Below, in pieces: positions 21,622-29,964 of a stretch of DNA of 60,778 nucleotides. The notes beneath the pieces are model-generated. The model was given only the letters and a program-made list of their open reading frames with translations, made no database searches and was not told the origin of the DNA. Within the stretch, counting starts at the first letter, position 1. Every line of letters starts with the position of its first letter. The position numbers and the translations under genes were made by a program. The DNA is taken from the IMG/VR virus record IMGVR_UViG_3300005529_000041, positions 1-60,778 of that record; one strand, 5' to 3'. This stretch comes from a virus.

Positions 21622-21757
21622 CGGCATCTACATCAAGGGCTGGAAGATCGACAAGGACGGCAACTTTGTCCCCAATCGGAAGCGCCTCGACGTGTCCACG
21701 CGTCTCAAGCAGAAGAACTCTAAGCGCGTGCGCGTCGTCAAACGCAGGACTGCATGA
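21611..21757 (+). CDS. Basic 48-aa protein
   Basis: ATG 21611 lies in the end of the preceding gene. The product (MRLSGIYIKGWKIDKDGNFV...) has a beta-like start and a very basic C-terminus (KQKNSKRVRVVKRRT), suggesting RNA or DNA binding. It overlaps the NusG-like gene by 4 bp and may work with it. Confidence 0.6.
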   Translation: MRLSGIYIKGWKIDKDGNFVPNRKRLDVSTRLKQKNSKRVRVVKRRTA

Positions 21758-22281
21758 GCCAGATCAAGTGGGTCGTCCTCCGCACCCAGCCCATCCATCG
21801 CTGCGAGTTCAAGGTGCTCCACCGCATCACCCAGGCGGAGTACCCCGCTATGCTGCCGTGCGAAGTCGTCTACAAGAAGGAGCCCGGCAAGCGCCACCAT
21901 GTCCAATCCCGCTATGCCCTGTTCCCCACCTACGTTTTCGCCGGCCTGACGGATATTGGCCGCGATTACGACAGTTTGCGCGACAACATTCCCGAGATCA
22001 AAGGCATACTGTCCAGGAGTCGGGCACAATGGTCGCCCTATGTGCTCAGCGAGCCCGAGGTCGAATTCATCAAGAAGCGGGTGGATGAATCCACTGCAAT
22101 GACGGCCGTCGACTTCCACAAGGCTCTGAAGATCGGCAAAACCGTCGAGGTTTCAGTCGGCGGAACCGTTCAGACCACCAAGATCGATGCCATCACAAAA
22201 AAGGGTATCAGGGCCATGCTGCAAATGTTCGGCGCCATGCATGTCATCGAGGTTCCATTCTCGGCGGTGAAGGCCGCCTAG
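21754..22281 (+). CDS. NusG/RfaH-family transcription factor
   Basis: A 175-residue NusG paralogue. The N-terminal NGN domain is visible (IKWVVLRTQPIHRCEFKVLH, then RYALFPTYVFAGLTD and IPEIKGILSRS). The C-terminus (GKTVEVSVGGTVQTTKIDAI) has the KOW-type barrel pattern. It is the last gene before the hammerhead region and the terminase. NusG-like proteins bind RNA polymerase and can suppress termination, so this may switch on late genes, like the RfaH or Q functions. Confidence 0.85.
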   Translation: MSQIKWVVLRTQPIHRCEFKVLHRITQAEYPAMLPCEVVYKKEPGKRHHVQSRYALFPTYVFAGLTDIGRDYDSLRDNIPEIKGILSRSRAQWSPYVLSEPEVEFIKKRVDESTAMTAVDFHKALKIGKTVEVSVGGTVQTTKIDAITKKGIRAMLQMFGAMHVIEVPFSAVKAA

Positions 22282-22486
22282 CCACACCGGAAAAAATCCG
22301 CACATAGCGATAAGATTTTGCTTGCGTACAGTTGCGAACCATGAGACAGACTGCAATGTCAAAGTCGTGGCGGTGGCGTTGGTCGCATCGGCGTGCTGGC
22401 CTCTCCCATTGCCCATAAGCCGGGAGCCAAGGTGCCAGGGCCGCCATTCGAGGCGAAGCCCGAAGAGTGACCTGAGTAATCCCCAA
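22282..22486. promoter_or_regulatory. Gap before the RHH gene, with operator-like half-sites
   Basis: 205 bp without a convincing gene. Two TTGCG half-sites (22322-22326 and 22332-22336) are spaced by 5 bp as direct repeats, the same half-site and spacing as in OL/OR. No clear -35/-10 pair is seen. It could be a regulated late promoter region. Confidence 0.3.
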
Positions 22487-22702
22487 ATGGCCAATCCCGC
22501 AGTATCCCAGCCTGACGACGATCCGGACGACGCGATTTCCGGAGCTAGGCTTTTCATGGCCATCCGCCCGAGCATGCTGGCGGACATCGAAGACTTCAGA
22601 TTTGCAAACAGATACAAGTCACAAAGCGCTGCCGTTCGCAAACTGTTGGAGCTTGGACTGCGCACCGCAGCTTGGGAAGCGCAGAAAAAGCCCAAGGCAT
22701 GA
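22487..22702 (+). CDS. Ribbon-helix-helix-like protein, 71 aa
   Basis: From ATG 22487. After an acidic start (PAVSQPDDDPDDAI) the rest (RLFMAIRPSMLADIEDFRFA, then YKSQSAAVRKLLELGLRTA) has the beta-helix-helix pattern of Arc/MetJ-type regulators. A long basic tail follows. It probably regulates the late region. Confidence 0.6.
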   Translation: MANPAVSQPDDDPDDAISGARLFMAIRPSMLADIEDFRFANRYKSQSAAVRKLLELGLRTAAWEAQKKPKA

Positions 22703-22772
22703 TTTGCAACGAAAGTCAAGATGGAAACGCAGTCACACGCTCCCCAGTCCCGGTAGAGTTGGGAGCCCAATG

Positions 22773-22850
22773 CCGCCCGCTCGTAAAAGAGCGGACTGAT
22801 GAGCCTAAAGGCGAAACGCGAAAGCGTCTCTTAGGCCCTCCCTAGGGCGG
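22773..22850 (+). ncRNA. Type I hammerhead ribozyme
   Basis: The core is complete: CTGATGA at 22796-22802; stem II GCC/GGC (803-805/810-812) with loop TAAA; GAAA at 813-816; stem III CGC/GCG (817-819/824-826) closed by a GAAA tetraloop; then T827 and C828, the NUH site, with cleavage expected after C22828. Stem I begins with GGA/TCT (793-795/829-831). Beyond it hairpin GCTC/GAGC (779-792), hairpin TAGG/CCTA (832-844) and helix CCGCCC/GGGCGG (773-778/845-850) meet with no unpaired bases. It lies between the RHH gene and the packaging genes and would cut the late transcript. Confidence 0.87.
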
Positions 22851-22915
22851 TGGTTGTATGGAGGGGCAGGCCGGGGCGTTGTTTCACGTGCAACATAGGT
22901 AAGCTATCCTGACCC

Positions 22916-23511: not shown

Positions 23512-23949
23512 ATGGCTGAGACCGATCTCGATCCTCAAGAAACCGCCTTTGTCGCGGCCTATCTTGAGACCACAAACGCCTCAGAATCCTATCGCCGCTG
23601 CAATCCGAAGGCCAAGAAGTGGAAGCCGCAGGCCGTCCACGTCGAGGCATCGAGAATGCTGGCGCGCCCTAATGTGCGCCTAAGGCTTGCAGCTTTGCAG
23701 GCTAAGGTCGAAGAGAAGGGCTTGTTATCATTGGAAGAACACATGGAGGAGCTTAGGAACCTCCGTGAGCTCGCCAAGACCAACGGCCAGCTGAGCGCCG
23801 CTATCCAAGCCGAAGTGAAACGTGGCGAGCTGCGCCGGTTCTACGTGAAGCAGGTCGAGAGCGGCCAAGCTGGCGAGTTCTCCCGGATGAGCGACGAGGA
23901 GCTTGATGCGTTCCTGAACGATGAAGAATTGCCGGTCGTCACGCACTGA
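23512..23949 (+). CDS. terS: Terminase small subunit
   Basis: A 145-residue protein. The N-terminal helix-turn-helix (DPQETAFVAAYLETTNASES, then VHVEASRMLARPNVRLRLA) is typical of small terminases that recognise the packaging site. A central helical oligomerisation region and acidic C-terminus (SDEELDAFLNDEELP) follow. The large subunit starts 3 bp after the stop. Identification rests on fold pattern and position. Confidence 0.85.
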   Translation: MAETDLDPQETAFVAAYLETTNASESYRRCNPKAKKWKPQAVHVEASRMLARPNVRLRLAALQAKVEEKGLLSLEEHMEELRNLRELAKTNGQLSAAIQAEVKRGELRRFYVKQVESGQAGEFSRMSDEELDAFLNDEELPVVTH

Positions 23950-23952
23950 CGC

Positions 23953-25617
23953 ATGCACATCCGTTCCGCTGGGCGCCTGCTGAAAGAGCGCAAGGCCGCC
24001 GCCAAATGGGAAAAGCTGCTTCGGGAGGAAAGGAAACGCCAAGCGGACCTTGATGGTGGCCTGCTCCACTTCGTCCGCTACTTCTGGCATGTGCTCGAGC
24101 CCAGCAAGGAACTGGTAGAAGGCTGGGTGCTCCATGCGATCTGCGCCCATCTCGAGGCCGTAACGCGGGGCGAGATCAACCGGCTTCTGATCAATGTTCC
24201 GCCGGGCTTCATGAAGAGCATGCTGGTCAATGTTTTCTGGCCAGCATGGGAATGGTCGGCGGCCGGCCTGCCAAGCATCCGCTACGTGACGTTTTCATAT
24301 GCAGCGCATCTCACAGAGAGGGACAACGGCAAGTTTCGCGATCTGCTGCGCTCCAGAGAGTTTCACGAACTCTGGGGCCACGCCGTCACGCTGACGGAGG
24401 ATGGCAAGATCAGGGTGGCCAACGATGCCACAGGCTGGAAATTTGCATCCTCAGTCAAGGGCGTCGGCACGGGTGAGCGCGGCGATCGCGTAATCCTCGA
24501 TGACCCGCACAACGTCAAGGAAGGTGAAAGCGAGGCCGTCAGGTCGGAGACGGTTCGCTGGGTGCGGGAAGGCATGTCCAACCGCCTCAATGACATGGAG
24601 ACCGGCGTTATTGTATGCATTATGCAGCGTGTCCATGAGGAGGACGTTTCCAACGCGCTGATCGCCGATGATCTTGGCTATGTGCACCTGATGGTGCCGA
24701 TGGAGTTCGACCCGGCAAGGCGTTGCGGAACCGCGATCGGCTGGGAAGACCCGCGGGAAGACGACGGCGAGCTGGCTTGGCCTGAGCGTTTTTCCCCATC
24801 GGCGGTTGCCCAACTCAAGCGCACGCTAGGACCATACGCCTATTCCGGCCAGTATCAGCAGTCGCCAGAACCCCGCGGCGGCGGCATCATCAAGCGAGCA
24901 TGGTGGGGTACTTACGAGCTCGCGATCGGCGCCAAGCCAAAGCACAGGCCAGAGTTCGTCGTTGCTTCTCTTGATCCGGCCTTCACAGCCAAGCAGGAGA
25001 ACGACCCGAGCGGCTTCGTGATCCTCGGCATCTATCGGACCGAAAATGGTCAGCCGCGCATTCTGTTGATGCATGCATGGAAGAAGTGGCTGGAGCTTCA
25101 CGGCCAAACCCAGGATCGAGACCCCAAGGAAACCAATGTTGCCTTTCTGAGGCGAACCCAGCCGCATTGGGGTCTCGTCGAGCAAGTGGCGCACGATTGC
25201 ACGCGGTTGCGCGTCGACAGGCTACTGATCGAGGATAAGGCTTCCGGTCATTCAGTGGCCCAGGAGATCAGGCGGCTCTATTCGGATCGCGACTGGGGCG
25301 TGCAGCTCGTCAATCCAGGTTCACTGGACAAGAGGGCCAGAGCTTACGCCATTCAGCATCTCTTTGCTGATGGCCTGATCGAAGCGCCCTACGACGACAA
25401 GTCGGGCCAATTCCGCGAATGGGCGCAGATGGTCATTGACGAGGCAGCGAAGTTCCGCGGCCTGCCAGGAGATGAAGACAACCTTGTCGATGCTCTCACG
25501 CAGGGCCTGAAATACCTGCGGGACAACAACCTGATCGTGCGCCGCGAAGAGCGCGAATACAACGAGCGTGAATCCATGCTGCATCGTACGAAGCGTGAGC
25601 CGCTTTATCCAGTATAG
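23953..25617 (+). CDS. terL: Terminase large subunit
   Basis: A 554-residue packaging motor. The ATPase domain has Walker A NVPPGFMKSM (81-90) and Walker B GDRVILDDP (about 177-185). The RNase-H-like nuclease domain shows VVASLDPAF, LLIEDKASG and DNLVDALTQG, which supply the acidic metal ligands. The K in the P-loop is present, though the motif departs from the usual R-x-G-K. Length is normal. It cuts and translocates DNA into the prohead. Confidence 0.96.
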   Translation: MHIRSAGRLLKERKAAAKWEKLLREERKRQADLDGGLLHFVRYFWHVLEPSKELVEGWVLHAICAHLEAVTRGEINRLLINVPPGFMKSMLVNVFWPAWEWSAAGLPSIRYVTFSYAAHLTERDNGKFRDLLRSREFHELWGHAVTLTEDGKIRVANDATGWKFASSVKGVGTGERGDRVILDDPHNVKEGESEAVRSETVRWVREGMSNRLNDMETGVIVCIMQRVHEEDVSNALIADDLGYVHLMVPMEFDPARRCGTAIGWEDPREDDGELAWPERFSPSAVAQLKRTLGPYAYSGQYQQSPEPRGGGIIKRAWWGTYELAIGAKPKHRPEFVVASLDPAFTAKQENDPSGFVILGIYRTENGQPRILLMHAWKKWLELHGQTQDRDPKETNVAFLRRTQPHWGLVEQVAHDCTRLRVDRLLIEDKASGHSVAQEIRRLYSDRDWGVQLVNPGSLDKRARAYAIQHLFADGLIEAPYDDKSGQFREWAQMVIDEAAKFRGLPGDEDNLVDALTQGLKYLRDNNLIVRREEREYNERESMLHRTKREPLYPV

Positions 25618-25626
25618 GGAGCATTC

Positions 25627-25854
25627 ATGGCAGCAGACAGCAAGAACCAGCATTCCTGGCCCACCGGCTCCGATATCGTCGGCTCCGTCCAGCGCGGCCT
25701 CATGGAGCTCGTCTCCTATCTCAGCCAGCCGGTCGGCGACATCAATGTCGATGCCGCCTTGAAGCAGATGGACGACATGGCGTGGCGGCTATCGCATCTG
25801 CGGACGCAGCCGCCGGCCGAGGAAGCCAAGCAGGGTGAAGCGCGGGCGCATTGA
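25627..25854 (+). CDS. Hypothetical protein, 75 aa
   Basis: A GGGAGC box precedes ATG 25627. The product is helical (ADSKNQHSWPTGSDIVGSVQ...). It sits between terL and portal and shares a base with the portal start (TGATG). Unknown role. Confidence 0.55.
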   Translation: MAADSKNQHSWPTGSDIVGSVQRGLMELVSYLSQPVGDINVDAALKQMDDMAWRLSHLRTQPPAEEAKQGEARAH

Positions 25855-28196
25855 TGGCCTTTACTGACCTCACGCCTTCGCGGCAGCCCAAGCGCCGCAA
25901 GCGCAAGGCCAAGCAATCTCCGCCTGAGGACGGGCAGTCCCAGGATGTGGAGGTTGTGATCAATGGCCTTGGGTCTGAGCCGTCGCTCGACACGGCAACA
26001 GGCGCCATCACGATCCCGCATGACGATGGCAGTGTCACGGTTGATTTCGGTGGCAATCTCGACGAACCGGAAGACGCCGGCCCAACAGCACACGATGCCA
26101 ATCTCGCCGACAAGATCGACGAGATGGAGCAAACCCGCATCTGCGAGATGCTGCTCGAGGCCATCGAGGCGGACAAGAGCGATCGCCAGCAATGGGTGAC
26201 GCAGCGTGCCAGGCTGGTCGAGCTCCTAGGCATGAAGCTCGAGGAACCGAAAGCTGACGTATCCGGCTCGACCATGGGCATGAGCACGTCGGTGGTGCGC
26301 GATCCCATCCTGCTGGAGGCCGTCGAGCGCGGGCGCGCCAATGCGTTCGCCGAACTGTGTCCGGCCTCAGGCCCCGTCAAGGTCACGAACTGGGATGTGG
26401 ATCAGCCGGACTCCAACGATCTCGCTCAGGAGCTTGAAACCGATCTCAACTTCTATCTGGTCAGCAACGCGCCGGGGACAGCTACCGAGTATTATCCCGA
26501 CACCCGCTACATGCTGTGGTGGACGTATCTTGCGTCGGGCACGTTCAAGAAAGTGTACTGGTGTCCGCTGCGGCGCCGGCCGGTCTCCGAGTATGTGGCC
26601 GGAACCGATCTGATCGTCCCGACCAACGCCACCGATCTCAAGAACGCTGGCCGCATCACGCATGAAGTGTCGATGCGCCGCAGCGTGCTCAAGCGCATGC
26701 AGATTGCTGGCGTCTATCGGGACGTGACGCTCACTGACCCGATGCCGCCGACGCCGAATGCCGTCGATCAGAAGGTGTCCAACATCGACGGCCGCAAGGT
26801 CAAGCCACAGCGCCAGGAGGACGAGGATTATACGATTTATGAGTGCTATTGCGAGCTGGACATCCAAGGTCAACAGCATAAGGAGGATGGCAAGGTCACT
26901 GGCCTTCCTCTTCCCTACAAGGTGACCATCGAAGCCGACAGCCGCAAAATCCTCGAAATCCGCCGCAACTGGGACGAGGACGACGAAGACTATACCGCCA
27001 AGATTCCCTTCGTGCTGTTCCCGTTCTCGACGGGGCTCAGCCGCATCTACGGTTCCGGCCTTGGGCACATGGGCGGCAACATCGCCGCTGCTCTGACAGC
27101 CCTGCTGCGCATCTCCATCGATGCTGGCATGGCCGCCAACTATCCCGGCCTGATCAAGGCCAAGGGAACGGGACGCCAGCTCTCCAACGAGATTGCTGTT
27201 CCGCCTGGCGGTGCGATGGAGATCGACACTGGCGGCCTGCCGATCCAGCAGGCCGTCATGGGCATGCCCTACAAGGACGCCTCGCCCGTCGTCGTCGGTT
27301 TGATTGATCAGCTGCGCAATGTAGGGAGAGGATTGCTTGGCAGTGCCGATCTTCCCGTGGGCGAGGGCAACGCTGATGTGCCGGTCGGCACCATCCTCGC
27401 TACCATCGAGCAGGCCTTGAAGGTCATGGCCGGCGCCCACAAGGCGCTGCATGCTGCCCAGAAAGAGGAATTCCGGCTCCTGATGGAGCTGTTCAAGAAC
27501 GATCCCGAGGCTCTATGGCGCGGCAACAAGAAGCCCGCCATGGGTTCCGACAAGGAGATCAGGGTCCAGAAGTTCAAGGCGGCACTTGATCGCTTTGAGA
27601 TCACGCCACAGTCCGATCCCAACGTTCCATCAGCCATGCATCGCAAGCTGCTGGCACTCGGGTTCAAGCAGCTCACCATGGGAAACCCCGCCTACGATCC
27701 CGTCAAGGTCGACGAGTACGTGGCGCGCGAAGCCTATCAGATGGGAGAGCAGCAGTTCCGCTCATTCCTGGCGCCGCCGCAGCAAGCCCCGCCAGATCCA
27801 AAGATCGTGGCGGCACAGGCCAACGCTGCAGCGAAACAGGCTGCTGAGACGACCAAGCTGCAGATCGCGGCCATGCAGCAGAAGAGCAAGGATGCAGATG
27901 CGGAGCTCAAGTCCCGCGATCAAGAAATCCGCGGCCACGTGGAGCTGCTGAAGCTGCAGAATGCTGCGGCTGACCGTGAGAGCCAGGAGAACCTGGCCAT
28001 GGTCAACACGGCCAAGGAAATCATCCAGGCGACCTCCGTGCATCCGGAAACCGAGGGCGCCGTCGACGATCAGCTCAAACAGTGGCTGCCGTACATGCAG
28101 CCCCAGCACACGCAAGAGCCTCCGCAGGAGGACTGGCAAGACCTTGTGCACCCTGTAACGCAGCAACCTTTGCCGCCCGTAGGAGGCATGCAATGA
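25854..28196 (+). CDS. Portal protein (podovirus type)
   Basis: A 780-residue protein directly after the terminase. The basic and acidic N-terminus is followed by the portal core (FSTGLSRIYGSGLGHMGGNI, then RNVGRGLLGSADLPVGEGNA and LATIEQALKVMAGAHKALH). The C-terminal third is a long Gln/Lys coiled coil (KQAAETTKLQIAAMQQKSKD) and ends in a Pro-rich tail. The large size fits portals of short-tailed phages with an extended barrel. It forms the ring for DNA entry and tail attachment. Confidence 0.9.
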   Translation: MAFTDLTPSRQPKRRKRKAKQSPPEDGQSQDVEVVINGLGSEPSLDTATGAITIPHDDGSVTVDFGGNLDEPEDAGPTAHDANLADKIDEMEQTRICEMLLEAIEADKSDRQQWVTQRARLVELLGMKLEEPKADVSGSTMGMSTSVVRDPILLEAVERGRANAFAELCPASGPVKVTNWDVDQPDSNDLAQELETDLNFYLVSNAPGTATEYYPDTRYMLWWTYLASGTFKKVYWCPLRRRPVSEYVAGTDLIVPTNATDLKNAGRITHEVSMRRSVLKRMQIAGVYRDVTLTDPMPPTPNAVDQKVSNIDGRKVKPQRQEDEDYTIYECYCELDIQGQQHKEDGKVTGLPLPYKVTIEADSRKILEIRRNWDEDDEDYTAKIPFVLFPFSTGLSRIYGSGLGHMGGNIAAALTALLRISIDAGMAANYPGLIKAKGTGRQLSNEIAVPPGGAMEIDTGGLPIQQAVMGMPYKDASPVVVGLIDQLRNVGRGLLGSADLPVGEGNADVPVGTILATIEQALKVMAGAHKALHAAQKEEFRLLMELFKNDPEALWRGNKKPAMGSDKEIRVQKFKAALDRFEITPQSDPNVPSAMHRKLLALGFKQLTMGNPAYDPVKVDEYVAREAYQMGEQQFRSFLAPPQQAPPDPKIVAAQANAAAKQAAETTKLQIAAMQQKSKDADAELKSRDQEIRGHVELLKLQNAAADRESQENLAMVNTAKEIIQATSVHPETEGAVDDQLKQWLPYMQPQHTQEPPQEDWQDLVHPVTQQPLPPVGGMQ

Positions 28197-29298: not shown

Positions 29299-29527
29299 GT
29301 TCAAAGCGCTCGCCGACGTGGCGGCGCTGATCAAGGAACGCCTGCAATCCGAGTATACGAATGCTGGAGATGGCGTCGGCCTCAATCTCGAGGACGCGGC
29401 CGTCGCCGGCATGATGTGGGCAAAGCGTGTCGGCGCCGTCGCCGCCTACAAGGAAGCGTTGGCCATTTGCCAGTCCGTAGAGCGGCAATTGATGGGTGAG
29501 CCGAAGAAAGCCAAGAAGGAGACGTGA
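29279..29527 (+). CDS. Hypothetical helical protein, 82 aa
   Basis: Overlaps the preceding gene by 20 bp. Helical sequence (SYEFKALADVAALIKERLQS) with a basic end. It shares a base with the cochaperonin start. Unknown role. Confidence 0.55.
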   Translation: MNLSSYEFKALADVAALIKERLQSEYTNAGDGVGLNLEDAAVAGMMWAKRVGAVAAYKEALAICQSVERQLMGEPKKAKKET

Positions 29528-29964
29528 TGTCGGCATTGTTCGAGAGGAAAGTGACCAGCCTCGGCATTGGCGCCCGCATGAAGATGGTGCATGCCGAGGA
29601 CCCCAAGAAGAAATTGCTGGATGAGATCGGCGAGATTCCCGAGGGCCTTGTCAATCTCAACAAGGTGCTCGTTGCCATCTATCGGCGCCCCGAGAAGACG
29701 GTCGGCGGCATCATCCTGACCGACCGTGCCAATGACGAGGATGTCTGGCAGGGCAAAGTCGGGCTCATTGTGGCGATGGGTCCTAAGGCCTTTGTCGACG
29801 ACGACACGACCCAGTTTCATGGCCTCAAGTACGAGATCGGCGACTGGGTATGGTTCCGCGCCTCCGATGGTGAGGCCTGTCAGCTCAATGGCATTCCCTG
29901 CCGCATCTTCCGCGCCGAAGGCTTGATCAACGGCAGGCTTCCCGATCCTGATTGCGTGTGGTGA
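29527..29964 (+). CDS. GroES-like cochaperonin (Cpn10)
   Basis: A 145-residue protein whose core matches Cpn10: LNKVLVAIYRRPEKTVGGII (the VLV...VGGI strand and mobile-loop region), WQGKVGLIVAMGPKAF and YEIGDWVWFRASDG. Extra N- and C-terminal segments make it longer than bacterial GroES (about 95 aa). Phage cochaperonins such as T4 gp31 help host GroEL fold the major capsid protein; its place among head genes fits this. Confidence 0.82.
   Translation: MSALFERKVTSLGIGARMKMVHAEDPKKKLLDEIGEIPEGLVNLNKVLVAIYRRPEKTVGGIILTDRANDEDVWQGKVGLIVAMGPKAFVDDDTTQFHGLKYEIGDWVWFRASDGEACQLNGIPCRIFRAEGLINGRLPDPDCVW

Follow-up and report, generated by a model that had tools for sequence, protein, structure and literature searches.

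The window, a stretch of viral DNA of 60,778 nucleotides analysed here as a whole, probably carries one copy of a structured phage RNA of ~140 nt, in which a type I hammerhead ribozyme is mounted in a doubly pseudoknotted scaffold and matures or nicks an RNA with a function of its own. Sequence and covariation establish the hammerhead core and its stems, the four helices of the scaffold, and the existence of relatives that are circularly permuted or lack the hammerhead. Phages commonly carry hammerheads, and why they retain them is an open question. In this case the ribozyme occupies a constant position within a larger conserved RNA, and the fold of that RNA is found without a hammerhead and in circularly permuted form as well. 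A testable answer is that the hammerhead would mature structured phage RNA, beyond merely chopping mRNA. Laboratory tests are within reach because a query with the permuted form matched 403 of 5,426 complete E. coli genomes (~7%), many of them partially and 14 with at least 80% query coverage.

The hammerhead core and the scaffold around it

A complete type I hammerhead core was read at 22796-22828 (Table 1). The bases C3UGANGA9, G12A13A14 and H17 and the A15.1-U16.1 pair are present, stems II and III are closed by loops, and the ends leave through stem I. A full descriptor, comprising the core and three stems, matched once on the + strand and nowhere on the - strand, with every conserved core base and all three stems intact. 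An independent pattern search returned the same single site in the window and none in the reversed control. The first-pass annotation had proposed a type I hammerhead here, and its sequence and coordinates hold, this being the sole descriptor match in the 60,778 bases. The covariance search with RF00163 that it called for gave no RF00163 match; no Rfam family was matched in the window at the gathering threshold, and the best weak match was to RF00008 (23.2 bits, E = 0.013, compared to a gathering score of 48.5). The gathering score is a software threshold on short models and not a chemical requirement. We infer that the hammerhead would self-cleave at the predicted site, 22828^22829.

Table 1. 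Features of the element and neighbouring genes in the window.
Feature	Position	Strand	Basis
NusG-family transcription antiterminator gene, ~0.5 kb upstream	21754..22281	+	phrog_6386, E 5.6e-11; PF02357 NusG, E 3.5e-07
Small repressor-like gene, immediately upstream	22322..22702	+	phrog_4738 transcriptional repressor, E 3.4e-07
5' element TCACAC; first two bases are those of the 3' product strand TCTTAG	22733..22738	+	by eye in class B
P1 hairpin, GCTCCC (22739-22744)/GGGAGC (22761-22766)	22739..22766	+	covaries in classes A and B
PK2 5' strand GTCCCGGT, in P1 loop	22747..22754	+	descriptor, class A and B alignments
P2 (outer helix) 5' strand TGCCGCCC	22771..22778	+	descriptor, class A and B alignments
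Hairpin A, GCTC(GTAAAA)GAGC; absent from most relatives	22779..22792	+	sequence read, relatives compared
Stem I 5' strand GGA	22793..22795	+	descriptor
Hammerhead core CTGATGA (C3-A9)	22796..22802	+	descriptor and independent pattern search
Stem II, GCC(TAAA)GGC	22803..22812	+	descriptor
GAA (G12 A13 A14), followed by A15.1 at 22816	22813..22815	+	descriptor
Stem III, ACGC(GAAA)GCGT, A15.1-U16.1 pair included	22816..22827	+	descriptor
C17 (H17); predicted cleavage 22828^22829	22828	+	inferred from hammerhead chemistry
Stem I 3' strand TCT, where the 3' product would start with a 5'-OH	22829..22831	+	descriptor
Hairpin B, TAGG(CCCTC)CCTA; loop region holds PK1	22832..22844	+	sequence read, relatives compared
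PK1 5' strand CCCTCC, hairpin B loop region	22836..22841	+	descriptor, class A and B alignments
P2 3' strand GGGCGGTG	22845..22852	+	descriptor, class A and B alignments
PK1 3' strand GGAGGG, just 3' of P2	22860..22865	+	descriptor, class A and B alignments
PK2 3' strand GCCGGGGC	22870..22877	+	descriptor, class A and B alignments
TerS (23512), TerL (23953) and portal (25851) genes, downstream	23512..28196	+	phrog_51, phrog_38, phrog_1216

The hammerhead lies inside a doubly pseudoknotted RNA that spans ~22739-22877 (~140 nt). P1 is a hairpin 5' of P2, and PK2 joins the P1 loop to the 3' end of the element. The window has P1, PK2, P2 and PK1 in the order, direct or circularly permuted, that defines the proposed scaffold RNA. 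The first-pass annotation had the middle of this element right but overlooked P1, PK1 and PK2, and the conserved unit is larger than it described. Pattern scans of viral contigs for short-stem-II hammerheads yielded relatives that share the stem I arrangement, and it was from their flanks that the three further helices were recognized. A strict four-helix descriptor was then run on 316 unique hammerheads, with dinucleotide shuffles of each flank as the control. Scores of at least 64 were obtained for 34 of the 316, compared to 0.87 expected from shuffles, and the score of the window (72.0) exceeded all 4,740 shuffles (maximum 69.0); the helices are picked for best score, which inflates pairing, and the shuffles were handled identically. 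Some relatives also have a very long helix, P0, outside all the others (shuffle p < 0.05 in 13 of 37). P0 was rejected as a helix of the window (shuffle p = 0.23).

Thermodynamic folding alone misses the window hammerhead, as the active core is absent from the plain minimum-energy fold of a short fragment. In a longer fragment the active nested structure was placed at -38.2 kcal/mol compared to a nested optimum of -62.7. The two pseudoknot duplexes contribute -10.3 and -14.2, and adding them, as simple sums without loop costs, brings the active structure level with that optimum. A competing hairpin, GCCCT/AGGGC, had been put forward as a switch for cleavage. It does form when the short fragment is folded to its lowest energy, but no covariation was seen for it in the alignments read, and it was set aside: L086 has the pairing in weak form and L124 lacks it, whereas PK1 and P2, which the switch would break, do covary.

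Stem I was also described as a perfect four-way junction, and this is borne out: stem I (GGA/TCT), hairpin A, hairpin B and the outer helix abut with zero unpaired bases between them. The outer helix exists as reported but is 8 bp long (22771-22778/22845-22852), not 6 bp. Both hairpins reach at least 3 bp in 5 of 36 cases (the window, L086, L124, L128 and L328), and the place of hairpin A is taken in most relatives by a short single-stranded stretch such as ATTTT. Because both hairpins are so rarely formed, the four-way junction is a recurring minority elaboration, and the four scaffold helices are the rule. No clear loop complementarity for a stem I-stem II tertiary contact, the kind that fast cleavage calls for, was seen in the window. 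The proposal that a hairpin loop replaces that contact found no support; the loop of hairpin B is the 5' strand of PK1, and hairpin A might make such a contact.

Structural classes among the relatives

The window and nine relatives with the same topology make up class B (n = 10: the window, L086, L094, L097, L098, L110, L111, L118, L356 and L398). In a hand alignment of this class, 21 of 21 pairs are standard in all ten sequences, though the sequences differ, and more than one pair type is found at 20 of the 21. The helices were picked by hand, which makes this alignment illustrative; the controlled test is the four-helix descriptor compared to shuffles. In the comparison for compensatory changes that had been recommended, the outer helix P2 covaries and class B relatives keep all compared pairs.

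Class A carries two additional motifs: P1 is followed by ACAUCUGG and P2 by GGGGAAUAACUGG. Scanning for GGGGAAUAACUGG returned 93 viral stretches, 75 of which have a hammerhead core motif just upstream. Before duplicate removal the catalogue held 49 HHR+ class A members, 25 HHR+ class C members and at least 12 hammerhead-less class A members. In an alignment of 25 class A sequences, 94.2% of cells were paired compared to 71.7% when shuffled and at most 42.0% when slid, and covariation was 0.594 compared to 0.159 (shuffled) and at most 0.105 (slid). Covariation was strong in all four helices, with pairing of 99.3% for P1, 100% for PK1, 100% for P2 and 91.1% for PK2.

In class C the order is hammerhead, PK1, P2 3' strand, PK1', PK2', linker hairpin, NCGUGGG, P1, PK2, P1' and P2 5' strand. 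As judged from this order, class C is a circular permutation of the scaffold in which the hammerhead core keeps its type I order. An alignment of 14 class C sequences was 96.8% paired, with covariation of 0.380 compared to 0.118 in the control, and two-sided changes are present in the re-ordered P2. Hammerhead-less scaffolds (class A: L257, L260, L267, L269, L285, L318 and L323) retain the P1 motif, P2, the PK1 strands and the same flanking motifs. In such members, L257 for example, a few bases join P2 to the NCGYGGAG strand. In the case of L260, a 17-18 bp inverted repeat noted by eye closes the whole RNA (CTAAGTGCCTCGTGTCCG/CGGACACGAGGCACTTAG).

Neither AUCUGG after P1 nor GAAUAACUGG after P2, the motifs by which class A is recognized, occurs in the window. 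By its helices the window belongs with the topologically matching class B and not with class A. Classes A and B share a topology without sharing the motifs AUCUGG and GAAUAAC, and may have converged on it. In that event the forms that are permuted or lack a hammerhead, which come from classes A and C only, speak only indirectly for the window.

A short element 5' of P1 resembles the strand that follows the cleavage site. The base that opens it matches the one directly following the cleavage site in 38 of 46 class A members (shuffle mean 17.8; 0/5,000), 13 of 13 class C members and 10 of 11 hammerhead-less members, counts that are inflated by the relatedness of the members. In class B the first two bases of the two strands agree in 10 of 10 by eye, with one base of positional freedom. 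On one reading, the 5' element could replace the product strand in stem I after cleavage and make cleavage irreversible; hammerhead-less members do not obviously fit. Pairing of the 5' element with the 3' product strand was considered and dropped, as the class B strands are alike and not complementary. A TATAAT-like hexamer lies just before the 5' element in 7 of 57 class A members. Separate promoters for class A elements are possible, though not general.

The class A element of Mycobacterium phage Gaia (L343, ~2501-2609) adjoins tRNA-Ser and has the core TTGATAA, that is, C3U with G8A, a change that would preserve the 3-8 pair. That of Arthrobacter phage Karkharias (L342, 2471-2616) directly follows an unannotated tRNA-like T-arm, near the right genome end and before an HNH gene. 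Five contigs (L081, L082, L083, L088 and L089) carry several hammerheads each, with stem I GCCA/TGGC, and represent a different phage hammerhead group; their stem II loop GGCA could pair with a downstream TGCC.

Genomic context and possible functions

The proposed RNA would be transcribed rightward with the late leader and would then fold. The hammerhead would cut between 22828 and 22829, with P2 and PK2, of 8 bp each, keeping the pieces together. This would leave a nicked RNA, with its new 5'-OH end kept in the structure ahead of the terminase message. Maturing or nicking the scaffold RNA would be the main job of the hammerhead; that the late mRNA would have its 5' end separated and shielded would be a secondary effect. 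The late mRNA could plausibly carry a 5'-OH end. That the scaffold would have its own function is suggested because it is found beside tRNAs, between other genes, permuted and without the hammerhead. As a guess, the matured scaffold might be a stable trans-acting or end-protecting phage RNA. A single function for all members is uncertain because the context varies.

A phage hammerhead of the ordinary kind, cutting the late polycistronic transcript before terminase, could give the same arrangement, with P1, P2, PK1 and PK2 being no more than an unusual means of keeping it in its active shape at low magnesium. We consider this unlikely, though it deserves weight. The first-pass annotation correctly placed the element 5' of the packaging genes, a location common to several window-like relatives; in L356, L111, L398 and L110, as in the window, it is followed on its own strand by TerS, TerL or portal genes. 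PK1 adjoins stem I, and prophage hammerheads flanking genes and stabilized by pseudoknots have been reported (Perreault et al. 2011, PMC3088659). However, PK1 and PK2 pair with the 3' flank, unlike the published stem I-stem II pseudoknots, and the P1 motif, P2 and PK1 strands persist where there is no hammerhead to hold in shape. The element is also not always ahead of an mRNA.

Among the relatives, the element of L118 lies just after a TerL-like gene, and the neighbors in L094, L097 and L098 are mostly antisense by ORF calls. Part of the class A elements adjoin tRNA genes, as in Gaia and prophiGD24-3, and a tRNA gene is found within 400 nt of 10 of 49 HHR+ members. Enterobacter phage SDFMU_EhYP has the permuted form between its capsid and tail genes, and the E. 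coli matches listed have no annotated feature beneath them. The class A/C motif occurred once in a sample of 398 genomes from one phylum, and on that basis it is mainly phage-borne.

It is improbable that the element is a cis-acting leader RNA recognized by a neighboring antiterminator, with cleavage releasing or resetting it. A NusG-family gene does lie ~0.5 kb upstream in the window, and in an E. coli prophage (L347, NZ_CP096587, 4001-4281) the permuted form is flanked by genes for an antitermination protein and holin. In published abstracts, NusG paralogs with a small set of target operons are an established kind. Many members, however, have no antiterminator visible close by, being placed in tRNA arrays or at other sites, and a late-leader position alone explains the neighborhood. 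Used as bait, the antiterminator gene of the window found no relatives. It is very improbable that the element is a hammerhead-like or decayed sequence, inactive in this phage: some relatives have altered cores, such as that of Gaia, and inactive hammerhead-like RNAs have been listed (Perreault et al. 2011, PMC3088659), but the window keeps all conserved core bases, the stems and the four scaffold helices intact.

Two results count against the preferred reading, that of an RNA matured or nicked by its own hammerhead. A scan of the window region returned no sigma-70-like promoter or intrinsic terminator near the element and so gives no support to a separate transcript here. None of 80 TerL-relative loci carried a hammerhead, so the element is not needed by that module and moves independently of terminase. 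BLAST of the region against phages gave no match with 660 bases and one chance-level match with 156 bases. A GroES-like co-chaperonin gene (29524-29961, + strand; phrog_3188, E 6.8e-10) was noted downstream of the terminase and portal genes.

Comparison with known RNAs

Rfam, searched in gathering and E-value modes with the window, relatives and one hammerhead-less form, returned no family for the scaffold, and no description of it was found in the open-access literature, a body that excludes subscription papers and preprints. The HDV-like and twister-like topologies do not, to our knowledge, fit the element. The hammerhead is of a known kind, and the scaffold, as far as these comparisons reach, is without an earlier Rfam family or open-access description, although an earlier description is possible. 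The evidence is evenly balanced on a broader proposal: that the scaffold represents a new class of noncoding RNA in phages, naturally circularly permuted and doubly pseudoknotted, with a length of ~90-100 nt once the insert is discounted. The hammerhead would cut the same point of the fold in both permutations (the 5'-OH of NCGYGGAG in classes A and C) and would thereby mature the RNA, and hammerhead-less forms would perform the same function unbroken.

Compared to the type I hammerhead (RF00163), the window shares all core bases, three stems, A15.1-U16.1, C at H17 and ends through stem I. It differs in scoring below the gathering score, in having a four-way-junction stem I inside a P1/PK1/PK2 scaffold, and in that no stem I loop-stem II loop contact was identified.

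GOLLD and ROOL (PMC12286853) are, in the accessible part of that source, likewise structured, pseudoknotted phage RNAs of unknown function that are often near tRNA genes. They are far larger, and no embedded hammerhead is mentioned there. Neither Rfam model matched the window or 15 relatives at the gathering threshold.

The hammerheads of Perreault et al. 2011 (PMC3088659) resemble that of the window in being phage intergenic with pseudoknots near stem I. In the accessible text of that paper the pseudoknots link stems I and II, whereas in the window the 3' flank is the partner of both, one pseudoknot reaching it from stem I and the other from a separate hairpin, and no permuted or hammerhead-less scaffold was found there. 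Two phages named in that work, PaP3 and Bcep176, had no match to the hammerhead descriptors. The non-circularly permuted hammerheads of Eckert et al. 2023 (PMC10085705) demonstrate that hammerhead RNAs can be permuted, as here. In that case it is the hammerhead core that is rearranged, whereas here the circular permutation affects the scaffold around a core that keeps its type I order.
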